Below are positions 59,665 to 64,000 of a stretch of 64,000 nt of DNA, in pieces. The translations under genes were made by a program, and so were the position numbers. Source of the stretch: Cyclobacteriaceae bacterium (lineage in GTDB: Bacteria > Bacteroidota > Bacteroidia > Cytophagales > Cyclobacteriaceae); contig JABFRS010000001.1 of NCBI GenBank assembly GCA_013141055.1, positions 1,054,001 through 1,118,000 of the forward strand, read 5' to 3'. The notes beneath the pieces are model-generated. The model ran no database searches. It was not told where the DNA came from and saw only the letters and a list, made by a program, of their open reading frames with translations. Position 1 is the stretch's first letter, and each line of letters opens with the position of its first letter.

Positions 59665-59722
59665 GTCAATAAAAATAAACATTAATAGACAAACTTGTCG
59701 CAACTAATGCTTTGTTGACAGC
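59662..59722 (-). repeat. attC-like site B (short, partly decayed)
   Basis: Outer arms TGTCAA (59664-59669) and TTGACA (59715-59720) are perfectly complementary. The right box GTTGACAGC (59714-59722) resembles the cassette-end box GTTGGCAGT at 61202. The loop begins with 18 of 19 bases of the AT-rich repeat (59668-59685). The box lies 10 bp after the stop codon of the 59733 gene, the same spacing as in the intact cassettes to the right. It probably marks the distal end of the array. Confidence 0.5.
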
Positions 59723-59732
59723 GATGAATATA

Positions 59733-60215
59733 TCAATCAACTATTTCCCTTTTCTCCACTTTACTCACTTGCTCATGATCAAACTTTACTAGTAAGGAAT
59801 TGAATTGCCAGCCGAATCCAGCTCCGGAAGTCCCTAAATCATACTCCCATACATTTGTTGTGTCCGTCCTGAAGTCTGGTGAGCCCAGGAGATTCAATAC
59901 TTCTGCTTTGTTTTTATTCTTCAGGAAATCACTTTCCACGATGTCATCTCTCATCTCATACCTTTTTTGTTTTTCTGAGAACCACCTTTCCTTACTGAAG
60001 TCCCTGGTTGGTTCGTAGAACATCCAACTGAAGATTAAAAAGATAATCCCTATGTAAATTATAGGTGTGAGAATAATAGTCCCTATCCAGGTCAACGAAA
60101 TTCTTAGAGTCTTGTTAGTCTTAATAATTCTTTTGAGTACCAATCTTAAGATGAAAAAGGTCAGCACTCCAATGGCCAGATTTATCAGATAAGCATCAAG
60201 ACCTATTTTCATCAA
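59733..60215 (-). CDS. Membrane protein with BamE/SmpA-like C-terminus, unknown
   Basis: A 160-residue protein: TM helices at about 9-25 and 42-66 (AIGVLTFFILRLVLKRII, IGTIILTPIIYIGIIFLIFS), then a soluble domain with DFLKNKNKAEVLNLLGSPDFRTDTTNVWEYDLG, which follows the SmpA/OmlA (BamE-like) helix-turn pattern of a GxPdf loop. No lipobox. It probably sits in the inner membrane. The stop is 10 bp from the box of site B, consistent with cassette organisation, but no matching start box was found. Confidence 0.75.
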   Translation of the reverse strand: MMKIGLDAYLINLAIGVLTFFILRLVLKRIIKTNKTLRISLTWIGTIILTPIIYIGIIFLIFSWMFYEPTRDFSKERWFSEKQKRYEMRDDIVESDFLKNKNKAEVLNLLGSPDFRTDTTNVWEYDLGTSGAGFGWQFNSLLVKFDHEQVSKVEKREIVD

Positions 60216-60290
60216 AATTTGCTTTCGTGATTCTTAAAGTATGTCAGTTTAAAAGGCGCGAATCTACCACATACAGGTTTGCCCCCGGTT

Positions 60291-60668
60291 TCACAGAAGA
60301 TTTTCCAGACAAACAAATAGTTCGTTGCCATCGGGGTCTTCGATTTGAAGTACATCATATCCCCATCTGACTTTCTTCGTTGGAACGGAATGCTCTGCAA
60401 CTTCTTTAAGCAGTTGGTCCACTCCATCGCGGGACAATTCAAGGAAAACACGAGATCGCCTGTTGTGAGTAGTGTCCTCACATAAAATGATCTCGCAACC
60501 CCCACGGTCGACCTGACACACTGTGCCCTTGCCATCTGCCTCATGCCATTTCTTTGTGAACCCAAGCTTGTCAACATAGAATGCTATTGCACTTTGTATG
60601 TCCGAGACAAAAAAGACCGGGCGCATGTACCACACGTGTTCAACAACCTCCTGGTTAGATTTTTCCAT
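60291..60668 (-). CDS. VOC family protein
   Basis: A glyoxalase-fold protein of about 125 residues. ATG 60668 (MEKSNQEVVEHVWYMRPVFF) is my choice; another in-frame ATG is at 60680. Half-units are VFFVSDIQSAIAFYVDKLGF and VFLELSRDGVDQLLKEVAEH, with the ending VLQIEDPDGNELFVCLENLL carrying the conserved DPDGNEL and the metal-ligand glutamate. EIILCEDTTHNRRSRVFLEL fits bleomycin-resistance-type members. The AT-rich repeat copy C lies 39 bp upstream. Substrate unknown. Confidence 0.87.
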   Translation of the reverse strand: MEKSNQEVVEHVWYMRPVFFVSDIQSAIAFYVDKLGFTKKWHEADGKGTVCQVDRGGCEIILCEDTTHNRRSRVFLELSRDGVDQLLKEVAEHSVPTKKVRWGYDVLQIEDPDGNELFVCLENLL

Positions 60669-60689
60669 GTCCGTTTGCATAAACCTTTT

Positions 60690-60743
60690 ACGTTGGATCC
60701 TTACCTAAATAAAAATAAACATTAAAAGGCAAATGAATGATGG
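60690..60743 (-). repeat. attC-like remnant C
   Basis: The loop repeat AAATAAAAATAAACATTAA (60707-60725) is flanked on the left by CGTTGGATCCTTACC, which resembles the left arm of the intact site E (GCGTTGGCCTTACC at 62725-62738), and on the right by AAAGGCAAATGAATGATGG, similar to that site's right arm. The outer boxes are not recognisable, so it looks like a decayed member of the same family. Confidence 0.4.
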
Positions 60744-61201
60744 CCTTTGCGACCGAAGCTCAAAGGTCTTTACAAGGTGCATGCACCGATACTACAGTGC
60801 TGAGACAAGGACAAGACAAAGGCAAACATCCGAGCGGAATAAGGGGGACATCGGTAGAACATCCGGGAGTTACAGGTAAAAAGTCTCGTTAAGGTCTCCA
60901 TAAGGTCTCGATAAGGTCTCCTTAAGGTCTCCATAAGGGTAGGGAGCTTCAGACCTGGAAAAAGGTGAATTGCTCATTATTGACGCTTTCCAGAGTGGTG
61001 TCTTAATTACGATGATGACTACGTCTATGTTTTACTTTTTCTCTAATAGTTTTTCAATATCTTATTCAATATCCTCAACTCTATCAGTATTGAATCCCGA
61101 GTTGTCTTTCAGGGTCCAGAAGTTCTCCCACCAGATTAGTTATTATTCATGTTCCTTTGTTATCGTGAGTGTATTTTCAAGTATGCTTGCTGCTAACTTT
61201 T
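60744..61201. other. Low-coding region inside the array
   Basis: No intact gene. 60780-60880 is purine-rich on plus, with repeated ACAAGG, ACAAAGG and three ACATC pieces; 60881-60939 is an 11-bp tandem repeat; 61040-61210 holds a decayed minus-strand reading frame. An 81-codon plus-strand frame (60970-61215) is open but reads as the antisense of that remnant. No RNA gene was recognised. Confidence 0.5.
60881..60939. repeat. 11-bp tandem repeat
   Basis: Four units of AAGGTCTCNNT at 60891-60901, 60902-60912, 60913-60923 and 60924-60934, preceded by a degenerate unit AAGTCTCGTT and followed by AAGGG. Variable positions 9-10 are CA, GA, CT, CA. On the minus strand it reads as repeated GAGACCTTA. 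Function unknown; strand slippage would readily change copy number. Confidence 0.85.
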
Positions 61202-61213
61202 GTTGGCAGTCGT
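61040..61213 (-). pseudogene. Decayed reading frame downstream of the cassette lipoprotein
   Basis: One minus-strand frame reads QQKLAASILENTLTITKEHE, two stops, LIWWENFWTLKDNSGFNTDR, VEDIE, a stop, DIEKLLEKK, a stop. The composition (helical, charged, WWENFW) looks protein-like, so this may be the C-terminal part of a broken gene. It has no start and I do not recognise the family. Chance cannot be ruled out. Confidence 0.3.
61202..61210 (-). repeat. 3' box of cassette 4 (R''-like)
   Basis: GTTGGCAGT on plus, 9 bp after the stop of the 61220-62134 gene. It pairs with GCTGCCAAT (62158-62166) at the unit's other end in 7 of 9 positions (both differences are G-A or C-T at the ends), and the following bases TAACT also match. 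The hairpin arm that should lie to the left is not recognisable, so the site is probably disrupted. Confidence 0.5.
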
Positions 61214-61219
61214 AACTTA

Positions 61220-62134
61220 TTACTTCACTACTCGAACATTGCTTACAATTCTCACGTCAACTGTGTCGGTCTTGAAATTGACATTCGATTCGATCTTCTC
61301 CAACCAACTTGTCCTTTGGTTATAAGAATACTTTGTCACGTTTCTCATATTGTTGAGATCAATTTTCTTTGTAGGATTGATCTTCAAAGTATCAGACTGA
61401 ATACTGCTTAACGGTTGGCCAAGTTTTACTGTCAGCTCAATTTCCTGGATGTCCCCATCGACTGACGTTGTGTGATATGTCAGAGTGGCAGGAGTTGGTT
61501 CTCCTGTCTTTGGATATGGCATACTCACCTCCTCAGAGAAATCCTGATTGATCGAATTTACTTTACTGTAGAGAGCAAAGTAGTCGTCAATGCCGTTCCA
61601 TAGATTTTCTCGGAACCTCTCCTTTGTTGAAGAATCACTTTTCGTAATCTGCAATAACGTTTGCCTATCCTTTTCTTCAATTTTCAAAGTGTCCGCAACT
61701 TTGAACAGCTCATTCAAACATCGTACATAGTAGTTTTCGAAATCCACAACTTCTGTAAATTCTCCCAAAGAACTAATGCGCAATTGATATGGCAAGCTAT
61801 GCTTCGTCAAGTCCTTCAAAATATCGAGCGCGCTGTTGTATTTGGTTTCCAATGAGTCCTCTGAAGATCTTATCGCTAGTTCTTTGAGAGGCAGTATTTC
61901 AACCTGTAAAATGTAACCCATTTGATTCTTGTCAAACACAGTAATCTTTATTGACTTCTCATAGGACACATTGGCTATGGTGTCATCATTAACCTTGGCA
62001 AAGTAGTATCCTTTTTCTGTAAATAGCCTGTAGTCTCCAATGTCCCACTTAGGTTTAATTATTTCATCTCCACTTTCTTTGTTCGTGCAACCAATAACTG
62101 TTATTAGCAGGAGGAACTGTATTGCTCTTATCAT
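61220..62134 (-). CDS. Cassette-borne lipoprotein, unknown
   Basis: A 304-residue probable lipoprotein. ATG 62134 gives the signal MIRAIQFLLLITVIGCTNKE with a lipobox Cys near 16; an in-frame ATG at 62149 would add five residues. The mature part is mixed alpha/beta with DIGDYRLFTEKGYYFAKVND, MGYILQVEILPLKELAIRSS and late strands IQEIELTVKLGQPL. I do not recognise a domain. It fills one cassette-like unit with 9 bp after the stop and 23 bp before the start. Confidence 0.78.
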   Translation of the reverse strand: MIRAIQFLLLITVIGCTNKESGDEIIKPKWDIGDYRLFTEKGYYFAKVNDDTIANVSYEKSIKITVFDKNQMGYILQVEILPLKELAIRSSEDSLETKYNSALDILKDLTKHSLPYQLRISSLGEFTEVVDFENYYVRCLNELFKVADTLKIEEKDRQTLLQITKSDSSTKERFRENLWNGIDDYFALYSKVNSINQDFSEEVSMPYPKTGEPTPATLTYHTTSVDGDIQEIELTVKLGQPLSSIQSDTLKINPTKKIDLNNMRNVTKYSYNQRTSWLEKIESNVNFKTDTVDVRIVSNVRVVK

Positions 62135-62156
62135 GAACTCAATGGTCAATAGTTAT

Positions 62157-62245
62157 AGCTGCCAATGTCTAGCTATAAGGTGTTTGCTTTGTCCAAATAA
62201 AAATAAACATTAAAAAGCAAATGACTTATAGCCCATGTTGTGTGC
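62157..62245 (-). repeat. attC-like site D
   Basis: Right box GTTGTGTGC (62237-62245). Arms GCTATAAG (62172-62179) with CTTATAGC (62225-62232), and TTTGCTTT (62183-62190) with AAAGCAAA (62214-62221), enclose a loop holding the AT-rich repeat (62195-62213). The left box, GCTGCCAAT at 62158-62166, departs from the consensus CACAAC but matches the 3' box of the next unit. So the site joins two units with different boxes, as in integrons. Confidence 0.72.
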
Positions 62246-62260
62246 AGTGCCGGGTCACAC

Positions 62261-62680
62261 TCAACGCTTTTTTATGAATTGACCCTCGCCAGAAGTAGTG
62301 TGAGGTCCGGCATAACCTGTCAGCCTAAACTTTAGTCTCCTTCCGCGAGTAGTTTGAAATTCAAAATACGGCTTCGAGGACTTGGAAAGCACCCTTTGCA
62401 CGGCATTGCTAGTCGTATCACTCGTTATCATATAGTTCAAACGCAATGTGCAATTCTCGTTGCCATCGATTTTGCCTTTAATTTCTCGACCGTCTTTGAG
62501 CTCAGTGAAGTAATCACCTTCTAGTGAGAGAACATAAGAAGCGCTGCCGAACTCTTTATTAAACTTTACCCTGTACTTACCGTCCTCAAGCTTCTCACAA
62601 TCTTGTCCATGAGCTAATTTGCCCAGCAGGAGCAGGGCAGTAGTTGTAGCTGATATCGACAAACTAATCTTTCGTCTCAA
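62261..62680 (-). CDS. Cassette-borne exported protein, unknown
   Basis: A 139-residue exported protein. Signal peptide MRRKISLSISATTTALLLLG then KLAHGQ, cleavage near residue 25. The mature part is strand-rich: DGKYRVKFNKEFGSASYVLSL, GDYFTELKDGREIKGKI, CTLRLNYMITSD, PYFEFQTTRGRRLKFRL. Two cysteines (in QDCEKLE and ENCTLRL) could form a disulfide. I do not recognise the family. Start 22 bp from the 5' box and stop 15 bp from the 3' box of its unit; there is no room for a promoter of its own. Confidence 0.78.
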   Translation of the reverse strand: MRRKISLSISATTTALLLLGKLAHGQDCEKLEDGKYRVKFNKEFGSASYVLSLEGDYFTELKDGREIKGKIDGNENCTLRLNYMITSDTTSNAVQRVLSKSSKPYFEFQTTRGRRLKFRLTGYAGPHTTSGEGQFIKKR

Positions 62681-62702
62681 GGTCTTTATTGGCTAAGGCA
62701 TT

Positions 62703-62791
62703 GCACACAACGTTTTGCCATGAGGCGTTGGCCTTACCTTAATTTAAAAATAGAGAAAAAAGGCCAATGCATTATAGCTTGTGTTGTGGGC
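62703..62791 (-). repeat. attC-like site E
   Basis: Left box GCACACAAC (62703-62711), right box GTTGTGGGC (62783-62791). Inner arms GCGTTGGCC (62725-62733) and GGCCAATGC (62762-62770) pair with one wobble; the outer parts of the arms pair imperfectly. The loop is A-rich. Overall 89 bp, similar in size to classical attC sites. Confidence 0.78.
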
Positions 62792-62799
62792 AGTTACAG

Positions 62800-63207
62800 T
62801 CACTTCACGATCACGGTCCAATTGTTTTTATTTAAATCCGACAGTTTATAATCTAATCGTTTATATCTTCCATTCGCCCTTAAAGTGTCCCAGTCAGTCT
62901 TAAGAACTTGCTCATAATCAAATATGAAGATACTTAAGGTGCTATCTTTACCATGACTAACGTCCCACACCCATTGATCCTTATTGTTCACTTTTTCAAC
63001 ACGAGTCGAGTCCCCGGGGTCTAGTCTTTCTCTGATAAAGAACTCCTTTTTATTAATTGAGGGCACATGCAGAACTGTATCCACTTCATAGTCAAAACAA
63101 ATCACTTTACCTGAACGGTTAATAATTAATAATCGATCATCAGGCGTTGGTTCCAGAACGCAAGAAACCAACAGTAAAAAAAATATAGCTATTAATATCT
63201 TATTCAT
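62800..63207 (-). CDS. Cassette-borne lipoprotein, unknown
   Basis: A 135-residue probable lipoprotein. ATG 63207 gives MNKILIAIFFLLLVSCVLEP with the lipobox Cys at 16; the frame is open 10 codons further but those codons lie in the attC-like site F. The mature part begins TPDDRLLIINRSGKVICFDYE and continues with strands (FIRERLDPGDSTRVEKVNNK, LSIFIFDYEQVLK). Unknown family. The stop is 8 bp from the 3' box. Confidence 0.78.
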   Translation of the reverse strand: MNKILIAIFFLLLVSCVLEPTPDDRLLIINRSGKVICFDYEVDTVLHVPSINKKEFFIRERLDPGDSTRVEKVNNKDQWVWDVSHGKDSTLSIFIFDYEQVLKTDWDTLRANGRYKRLDYKLSDLNKNNWTVIVK

Positions 63208-63229
63208 TTTCCACTCTTTCAATGTAATT

Positions 63230-63362
63230 GCCCACAACGCTCGGCTATAAAACGTATGCGTTTAAATACCTACATCTTTGTCCCACGTTACTGCCGAAAT
63301 TTAACAGCACACACTTTAAGAACCTACGATATAGCATATGTTTTATAGCCATTGTTGTGCAC
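63230..63362 (-). repeat. attC-like site F
   Basis: Left box GCCCACAAC (63230-63238), right box GTTGTGCAC (63354-63362). Arms GGCTATAAAACGTATGC (63243-63259) and GCATATGTTTTATAGCC (63334-63350) pair over 17 bp with a single mismatch, the best hairpin of the array. The loop is about 74 bases. At 133 bp it is the long type of site. Confidence 0.82.
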
Positions 63363-63365
63363 CGT

Positions 63366-63857
63366 TTAGACATTAGTCCCACGCCAGATAACTGGGAAAA
63401 TCGTCTGCTTTATTGTCGGGTGTAGTCCAGCCGGGATGAAATACTCGCTCGTCATCATGTTTGTCACAATACAATACGTCCCGTCCGTGAATGTGTACTT
63501 GGCAAAGTCAAAGTCGAATCCAAGTAGTCCGATCTGTTTTTGTTCTTCAATGTCAACCGACCTAACGTCATTGAGTTTCCAAATTTGTCTCCGTCCGTCT
63601 CTGGTGATTTCAAATATTCCATTGTCCTGGTCAATGCGCACCTGGAGGTAGAGACTTCTTCTCAAATAATGAGCCGTCAAGCAAATTGGTATCAGTCCAA
63701 CTATTGCCAGAAACGAAGCAACTACAATCAATGTATTGTCCACCGGGAATCGTATCAAAAGAAACATTGAGCTCCCCAACAGTCCAAATCCTATTAAGAG
63801 ATTGAAAAACTGTCCGAATCCAAACTTGTACTCGTAATGATGGTTTACTTTGTCCAT
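63366..63857 (-). CDS. Cassette-borne two-TM membrane protein, unknown
   Basis: A 163-residue protein from ATG 63857 (MDKVNHHYEYKFGFGQFFNL); the frame is open 24 codons more but through site G. Two TM helices at about 17-36 and 45-66 (LLIGFGLLGSSMFLLI, TLIVVASFLAIVGLIPICLT) precede a soluble strand-rich part (YLQVRIDQDNGIFEITRDGR, FAKYTFTDGTYCIVTNMM) like a bacterial PH-type domain. Not assigned to a family. The stop codon is 3 bp from the 3' box, the start 9 bp from the 5' box. Confidence 0.78.
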   Translation of the reverse strand: MDKVNHHYEYKFGFGQFFNLLIGFGLLGSSMFLLIRFPVDNTLIVVASFLAIVGLIPICLTAHYLRRSLYLQVRIDQDNGIFEITRDGRRQIWKLNDVRSVDIEEQKQIGLLGFDFDFAKYTFTDGTYCIVTNMMTSEYFIPAGLHPTIKQTIFPVIWRGTNV

Positions 63858-63866
63858 GGCTAAATG

Positions 63867-64000
63867 GTGCACAACGTTTGTGCATGAGCAGTGGCGGGTG
63901 TAAGTTGTGCCACACTGTCCCCGTTGCAAAAACGTATTTTGAAAGATAACACTTTTACCTTAAACCAAACCAGCCATTGCTTATGCATTGTGTTGTGGGT
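63867..64000 (-). repeat. attC-like site G at the window edge
   Basis: Left box GTGCACAAC (63867-63875), right box GTTGTGGGT (63992-64000), which ends on the last base of the window. Arms TGCATGAGCAGTGGCGGGT (63881-63899) and AACCAGCCATTGCTTATGCA (about 63968-63987) pair over about 17 of 19 positions. A further unit must lie to the right. Confidence 0.78.

Follow-up and report, generated by a model that had tools for sequence, protein, structure and literature searches.

A probable integrase-less cassette array of a Bacteroidia integron type in a Cyclobacteriaceae genome

The window analyzed here is a 64,000-nucleotide (nt) stretch from a Cyclobacteriaceae bacterium, positions 1054001-1118000 of contig JABFRS010000001.1 (C1) in a 4.65-Mb genome of 2 contigs. 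On its minus strand, between 61.2 and 64.0 kb, lie four one-gene units with imperfect palindromes between them. Four single-gene units and four such palindromes had been described in an earlier note on this DNA, and all were found to be present (Table 1); the palindromes are far beyond chance. The array extends 0.6 kb beyond the end of the window, where one further cassette and a short head site are followed by menA; about 50 nt separate the menA stop codon from the start of the head site. The five cassette proteins (four in the window and one beyond it) gave no Pfam match over cut-off, and an Rfam scan of the window returned no family. We describe below the structure of the hairpin sites, their distribution and their association with a family of tyrosine recombinases.

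A strand-neutral palindrome scan of the genome recovered the same type of site as a second array on contig C2. Fourteen aligned sites, four from the window and ten from the second array, some of them added by eye, were used to build a covariance model, R1. The alignment contains 20 base pairs, 12 of which show changes on both sides, and 94.3% of its cells pair. Its covariation score was reached by none of 500 shuffles, and at most 49.5% of cells paired in slid controls.

Pairing in the hairpin arms was counted on the strand opposite to the genes for 232 of 251 sites, gapless over 14 positions, a count in which bulges could hide. The 251 sites were R1 matches from three scans (71 of 95, 80 of 80 and 100 of 106); those left out were weaker other-strand matches on the same palindromes and partial or weak matches among the 95, and five other-strand matches and one that was cut off among the 106. 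Watson-Crick pairs made up 2773 of the 3248 cells, with 293 G.T, 15 A.C and 167 other combinations. The G.T pairs were conserved, at least 222 of the 232 sites had the longer spacer on their 5' side, and no constant extrahelical base was seen in the L arms in this same gapless count. As a double-stranded site would show no bias, the excess of G.T on one strand indicates that the foldable strand is the one opposite to the genes. The longest open reading frame lay on the gene strand in 91 of 97 units. Integron attC sites are likewise used as the folded strand opposite to the genes (PMC8946536), and the present sites share with those of canonical integrons both an imperfect palindrome of conserved structure and this choice of foldable strand. 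As a separate observation, the hairpins can be grouped by sequence into a few families whose members stand next to unrelated genes (window 63231-63361 and locus L007 12809-12939), which would suit partly independent histories of hairpin and gene.

In the classic R' core, GTTRRRY, exchange takes place between G and TT. AAC and GTT cores were both found in 143 of 150 usable sites (151 typed). Across these 143 sites GTT was followed by G (105 sites) or A (38), and the second base was T in 71, G in 56, C in 15 and A in 1; beyond GTTR the box bases varied, and the RRY of GTTRRRY was not kept. The earlier note had proposed a common GTTGTG/CACAAC core. This sequence is present in seven of the eight boxes of the window sites (the exception, the left box of the 62.2-kb site, is CCAATG), and is a local coincidence, as the bases after GTTR vary in the wider set. 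Its further suggestion that an extra TG, as in GTTGTGNNN, marks the class did not survive, since the bases in question are particular to each cassette and are complementary to its own other end.

Pairing between unit ends was counted for 88 units. The two ends of one unit agreed as a pair at 7.55 of 10 nt outside GTT, compared to 3.92 of 10 for the two flanks of one site and 3.80 for shuffled units (standard deviation 0.16, maximum 4.19 in 200 shuffles). At the eighth base a unit's own ends almost never agreed (0.01); in the units printed, G mostly stood against A, so that the strand opposite to the genes has a G.T pair there. In a circular cassette the ends would meet around the hairpin, where the outer stem would reach about 15 bp. 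Judged from these sequences, own-end complementarity is characteristic of cassettes with a circular form; a linear array would need none.

In this genome R1 matched 24 sites at E<=1, of which 22 reach E<=0.0011 and 14 are its seeds, and all 24 fell inside four clusters of 5, 4, 4 and 11. Matches were also found at E<=0.01 in 38 of the 58 genomes of a relatives set and at E<=0.001 in 148 of 396 genomes (37%) and 94 of 198 genera of the class, own genome included in each set; in the set of 396, up to 8 candidates were scored per genome, and contigs may break at arrays. We take the class name used here, Bacteroidia, to follow GTDB usage. At 29 menA loci of relatives no R1 site at E<=1 was present in the fetched flanks, up to 1.5 kb. 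The array is therefore not a conserved operon. The covariance search proposed in the earlier note thus found what it predicted, and together with the menA comparison supports its proposal of an integron-like cassette array with a distinct attC class; the two outcomes that it had named as contrary, absence of the sites elsewhere and a conserved operon, were not seen. A simple pattern, CACAACG-N(60-90)-(T)GTTGTG, proved too strict, with 1 match in the window and 3 in the genome versus 2 in a backward control. Two further arrays of this genome, at L128 8800-11376 (5 R1 matches) and L129 8820-13677 (4), had no recombinase that we could find.

Recent duplicates within genomes were used to delimit the unit. 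Genome G024 contains two adjacent copies, 99.7% identical and with identical hairpins, that match each other from one GTT up to the following GTT and diverge beyond these limits; the duplicate begins and ends at GTT, the cut base itself being unreadable from sequence. Two separated copies in genome G023 are 96.6% identical. In both duplicates identity starts at GTT, the 3' hairpin is shared (1.00 and 0.90) and the 5' hairpins differ, so in two of two cases the unit is a gene with its 3' site. A unit of the genome under study recurs at 84% identity over its whole length in Cyclobacteriaceae bacterium ACE_BAC7 (JAHBUD010000001.1), with a third copy in Algoriphagus sp. A40, and the neighbors differ. 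Pfam families among the cassettes were mixed (hydrolase, amidohydrolase, CrcB, TfoX-N and one weak sugar hydrolase) or absent, and PADLOC gave no match in 10 cassette proteins.

We found no integron integrase in this genome with TIGR02249 or family-model searches. TIGR02249 gave matches at E<=1e-5 in all 14 control genomes and nothing over its cut-off in this genome or in the 58 genomes of the relatives set. A different family of recombinases was found beside arrays in other genomes, and a family model, A4, was made from an alignment of 18 family members. This family was not found in the genome under study, where 5 of 16 candidates were scored with A4, and 7 of 7 in the relatives-set search. 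A4 matches occurred in 221 of 396 genomes (56%) and 124 of 198 genera of the class. Sites and recombinase occurred together in 106 of the 396 genomes, sites only in 42, recombinase only in 115 and neither in 133 (Fisher p 8.5e-7).

Among the matches listed, all 19 site-recombinase pairs within 16 kb (15 recombinases) had the site downstream and co-oriented; the rows compared, 142 for sites and 150 for recombinases, were drawn from longer lists and excluded those of the own genome. A downstream site at E<=0.01 was present at 11 of 18 recombinase loci, several of which had been chosen because their contigs also held sites. Twenty stretches were fetched around recombinase genes, 19 of them with sites, and all 80 sites at E<=0.01 lay on one strand per array. 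When 28 A4 recombinase loci (some overlapping with the other sets) were compared to 22 canonical IntI loci, 9 of the former had a site at E<=0.001, whereas none of the latter had one at E<=1 within about 1.5 kb on each side. Behind the recombinase stop codon, short palindromes ending in GTTR were noted by eye, unscored, at about a dozen of 17 loci, and these are likely to be attI. In the ACE_BAC7 metagenome-assembled genome (JAHBUD010000001.1, 3.22-3.30 Mb), a single recombinase is followed by thirty sites that span about 72 kb; the gaps between them, in which R1 had no match, reach 16 kb. Many of the listed A4 matches have a stop codon inside the matched stretch, and decay looks frequent. Of 80 minus-strand recombinase rows compared, 25 begin within 700 nt of the contig start, as expected if arrays break assemblies.

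The array-linked recombinases differ from IntI in sequence. The IntI-specific insertion of about 42 residues was absent from 45 of 45 family recombinases and present in 21 of 21 IntI. The distance from the GKG motif to the LRHSF motif was 109-110 residues in all 21 IntI, and 67 (n=43), 68 (1) or 72 (1) in the 45 family members. Compared to the best solved relative, the Vibrio integron integrase 2a3v, an array recombinase has 14 residues where 2a3v has 57. All eight array recombinases scanned scored 182-231 bits with TIGR02249 (cut-off 265) and 206-219 bits with NCBIfam NF040815 (XerA_Arch, titled 'site-specific tyrosine recombinase/integron integrase'), just below the cut-off of 220. At least one family member carries this title as its NCBI name.

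In a tree with five outgroup sequences, 47 array-family recombinases were monophyletic (96.6/98), as were 21 IntI (99.9/100), and the array family was not nested among IntI. The clade of 47 includes the Chryseobacterium plasmid and tet(X3)-linked proteins. As the tree is unrooted, loss of the IntI insertion and an independent origin are both possible. The 11 array-linked recombinases of the 18-locus set fell in the non-IntI clade, as did the 6 of 15 paired recombinases that were in the tree; the other 9 were matched by A4 alone. Foldseek ranked 2a3v first for the whole recombinase. An extra N-terminal stretch of about 80 residues, differing from IntI, was predicted with fair confidence (mean predicted local distance difference test 81), and this domain alone gave weak structural matches to the XPB damage-recognition and SMARCAL1 HARP domains. 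A role for this predicted domain in reading the hairpin is attractive but unproven.

Canonical IntI was over cut-off in 105 of 395 genomes of the phylum. Among the 107 phylum genomes with an IntI match at E<=1e-60, one (G188) belongs to this class, the share of the class in the 395 not being given. Our own scan for canonical attC at four phylum IntI loci and one Vibrio locus yielded nothing at first and then too few sites to compare.

Members of the recombinase clade were also present on plasmids. On Acinetobacter indicus plasmid NZ_CP041297.1 (4043-6064), a gene annotated 'xerD' lies directly upstream of tet(X3) and is co-oriented with it; the published unit is ISCR2-xerD-tet(X3)-res-ISCR2 (PMC8635130). 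The tet(X3)-linked protein shares 54% identity with an array recombinase across 238 residues and nests in the clade (92.8/99 with the G391 protein). Between xerD and tet(X3), a short palindrome with GTTA at its end was read by eye, and this stretch had no R1 site at E<=1. From its sequence, the tet(X3) unit looks like a recombinase and first cassette captured from a Bacteroidia integron. On the Chryseobacterium sp. SNU WT5 plasmid (5986-11615), a recombinase 38.6% identical to protein P0001 precedes a series of small genes, most of them co-oriented. R1 gave three weak matches (E 0.002-0.01) in this plasmid array, and the system may travel on plasmids.

Features of the window array are collected in Table 1. 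The hairpin beyond the box at the last cassette is degenerate and folds poorly. Copies of a hairpin arm of the site E type lie at 60707-60745 (90% similarity to 62195-62233) and at 59667-59705 (67%), in a region that may hold worn-out older cassettes and that gave no R1 match at E<=1. Between that region and the array, at 60880-60938, is a AAGGTCTCNNT-like repeat of four tandem copies with 11-bp spacing.

Table 1. Features of the cassette array in the window (positions in the 64,000-nt stretch; plus is the model strand, opposite to the genes).
Feature	Position	Strand	Remarks
attC-like hairpin site B	63868..63999	+	R1 101.7 bits, E 6.7e-23; seed of R1 (n=14); folded
Cassette gene, 163 aa, no Pfam family	63366..63857	-	
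One complete cassette body	63354..63875		Inverted repeat I3: 20-nt ends 63354-63373 / 63856-63875, 90% complementary across gene
attC-like hairpin site C	63231..63361	+	R1 100.7 bits, seed; arm pair I5 94%
Cassette gene, ~135 aa, no Pfam family	62800..63207	-	Lipoprotein-like start (read from sequence)
Cassette body	62783..63238		Inverted repeat I7: ends 62783-62798 / 63223-63238, 94% complementary across gene
attC-like hairpin site D	62704..62790	+	R1 71.6 bits, seed
Cassette gene, 139 aa, no Pfam family	62261..62680	-	TTG start as listed
attC-like hairpin site E	62159..62244	+	R1 68.2 bits, seed; degenerate left core CCAATG vs CACAAC
Cassette gene, ~304 aa, no Pfam family	61220..62134	-	
Remaining box GTTGGCAG of last cassette	61202..61209	+	Partner CTGCCAAT at 62159-62166
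Possible worn-out older cassettes	59667..60745		Direct repeat family D1

We consider it highly probable that the window contains part of an integrase-less cassette array, similar to the clusters of attC sites lacking an integrase (CALIN), of a Bacteroidia integron type whose cassettes are moved in relatives by the linked recombinase. Each cassette would consist of one gene and the hairpin on its 3' side, bounded by GTT on both sides. Excision as a circle would join the two cassette ends and lengthen the hairpin stem by about 15 bp, a pairing conserved cassette by cassette, and the strand opposite to the genes would be kept foldable. In relatives, the linked tyrosine recombinase, encoded upstream and co-oriented, would insert and remove cassettes, with exchange at the attI-like short hairpin behind its stop codon and at the array hairpins. 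The recombinase presumably acts on a folded single strand, and its extra N-terminal domain may read the hairpin. The four arrays of this genome would be the legacy of an integrase that has since disappeared, or insertions made by one working off target. The system appears to work like an integron, yet its recombinase fails the test that defines IntI, and as read from these genomes it is a widespread integron variant, perhaps an independent way to recombine folded single-stranded DNA.

Several other explanations were weighed. The co-directional, tightly packed genes could be read as an ordinary operon of the chromosome in which the palindromes act as terminators or attenuators between genes, but 29 other menA loci lack the site, unit ends pair with each other and not with the neighbor, one unit was duplicated from GTT to GTT, and another occurs in three genomes with different neighbors; an operon is extremely unlikely. 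The same low standing applies to hairpins of a REP/BIME-like family (repetitive extragenic palindromes or bacterial interspersed mosaic elements) inserted between unrelated genes. Recurrence of hairpin families beside unrelated genes would suit such a family, whereas complementarity between the far ends of each gene is not expected of a passive repeat, and the hairpins had one orientation behind the recombinase in 15 of 15 compared cases; we regard it as scarcely credible.

That the array belongs to a canonical integron with normal attC sites, its IntI merely unsampled in the genus, is very improbable. The cassette logic is the same and IntI is over cut-off in more than a quarter of the phylum genomes, but TIGR02249 was over cut-off in 0 of 58 relatives, a single one of the 107 phylum genomes with a match at E<=1e-60 is in the class, the array-linked recombinases fall in another clade and lack the IntI insertion, and R1 found no site beside 22 IntI loci. 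A somewhat better case, though still an unlikely one, can be made for dif-type modules or another double-stranded Xer substrate, in which the inverted ends would be recombinase arms and the hairpins passive spacers or terminators. The recombinase resembles XerA/XerC in lacking the IntI insertion, a cassette's own ends form an inverted repeat of about 15 bp, and hairpins are not kept with genes in older pairs. Against this, end sequences differ between cassettes, so there is no fixed recognition sequence, and the arms show strong compensatory change and a strand bias of 20 to 1, both needless for a double-stranded site.

Some observations weigh against the integron-type array that we favor. The array, the site structure, the strand bias, the unit boundaries, the recombinase linkage and the absence of the array at the locus in relatives are read directly from the sequences; recombination, circles and binding are proposed. 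GTT was required by the script used for the end-pairing count, and the strand bias was counted on sites chosen by a model that favors G.U over A.C; in a tally of the pair table, the 14 seeds, obtained by eye and from the strand-neutral scan, still showed 39 G.T versus 4 A.C. The arrays of this genome have no recombinase that was found and so may be dead. The link between sites and recombinase is loose, as no recombinase at E<=1e-60 was seen in 42 of 148 site-bearing genomes, and no site in 115 of the 221 genomes with a recombinase. Seven of the 18 recombinase loci had no downstream site at E<=0.01 (three of these end within 200 nt of the stop codon), and locus L179 had no site in 20 kb. The attI-like sites were recognized by eye and from four weak R1 matches (E 0.1-0.3).

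The behavior of older cassettes also counts against a simple form of the cassette. In six of the eight shared-cassette pairs (cross-genome, older, 67-87% identical and representing four distinct cassettes) no clear sharing of either hairpin was seen. Likeness was 0.46-0.65 for the 3' hairpin and 0.39-0.73 for the 5' hairpin, where the background has a median of 0.55 and a 95% point of 0.70; the unit ends are conserved. This is not predicted by a simple cassette of gene plus 3' hairpin, and genes and hairpins seem, from these comparisons, to part over time. For IntI, avoidance of second cleavage has been tied to the contact between I2 and attC, and recombination at the L box is very rare (PMC4792948). 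A recombinase without I2 might be freer and may exchange at the other hairpin arm as well.

We also considered, with somewhat less than even confidence, that this is a second, independently evolved integron machine in Bacteroidia. An Xer-like recombinase without I2 would act on folded single-stranded hairpins, a domain like HARP or the XPB damage-recognition domain and the G.T wobbles would replace I2 and the extrahelical bases, and in the absence of the I2 brake exchange would also occur at the other arm, so that genes and hairpins reassort. A survey relying on the IntI insertion would overlook these systems, despite sites in 37% and the recombinase in 56% of 396 genomes. If active, they would form an extensive network of gene exchange that has gone unseen, and would offer a natural experiment in the evolution of folded-DNA recombination. 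On Acinetobacter plasmids, the clade member that lies upstream of tet(X3) hints at a possible source of that gene unit.

Compared to IntI integrons, the array recombinase lacks the IntI-specific insertion and is co-oriented with its array, the outer stem of the free cassette would be about 15 bp with sequence free beyond GTTR in place of GTTRRRY, and the strand is marked by conserved G.T wobbles and an uneven spacer. The likeness is closest to sedentary chromosomal integrons and CALINs, which have tandem one-gene cassettes in one orientation, a 3' site, a unit bounded by GTT, a foldable strand opposite to the genes and an integrase at the array head, the integrase-less clusters being termed CALIN (PMC8618304). 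A CALIN is defined as two or more attC less than 4 kb apart with no integrase in the cluster (PMC9668308), and the four R1 clusters, for which no integrase was found, would qualify only on the premise that R1 sites are attC. There are published reports of integrons in Bacteroidota (PMC8618304, PMC9024848, PMC2426708). In the open-licence part of PubMed Central, we found no report of insertion-less recombinases heading cassette arrays with a site class of their own across Bacteroidia.

The IntI insertion is described as enabling the move of the integrase to folded single strands (PMC7790495), and the extra domain as distinguishing IntI from other integrases (PMC9024848). The array recombinases may be among the 'integron-like' simple tyrosine recombinases of the survey by Smyshlyaev et al. 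(2021), in which the insertion is incompletely conserved within the integron-like subgroup; the excerpt of that survey does not tie insertion-less members to cassette arrays or sites and calls the insertion essential for integron function (PMC8138268). XerA, XerC and XerD likewise have a catalytic domain without the insertion, whereas the array family forms a clade of its own (96.6/98), has an extra N-terminal domain and is linked to cassette arrays. In CTX-type phage integration, a folded stem is also used without an I2-like domain and without extrahelical bases, but the phage relies on the host XerCD (PMC4792948), whereas here a dedicated recombinase heads the array.

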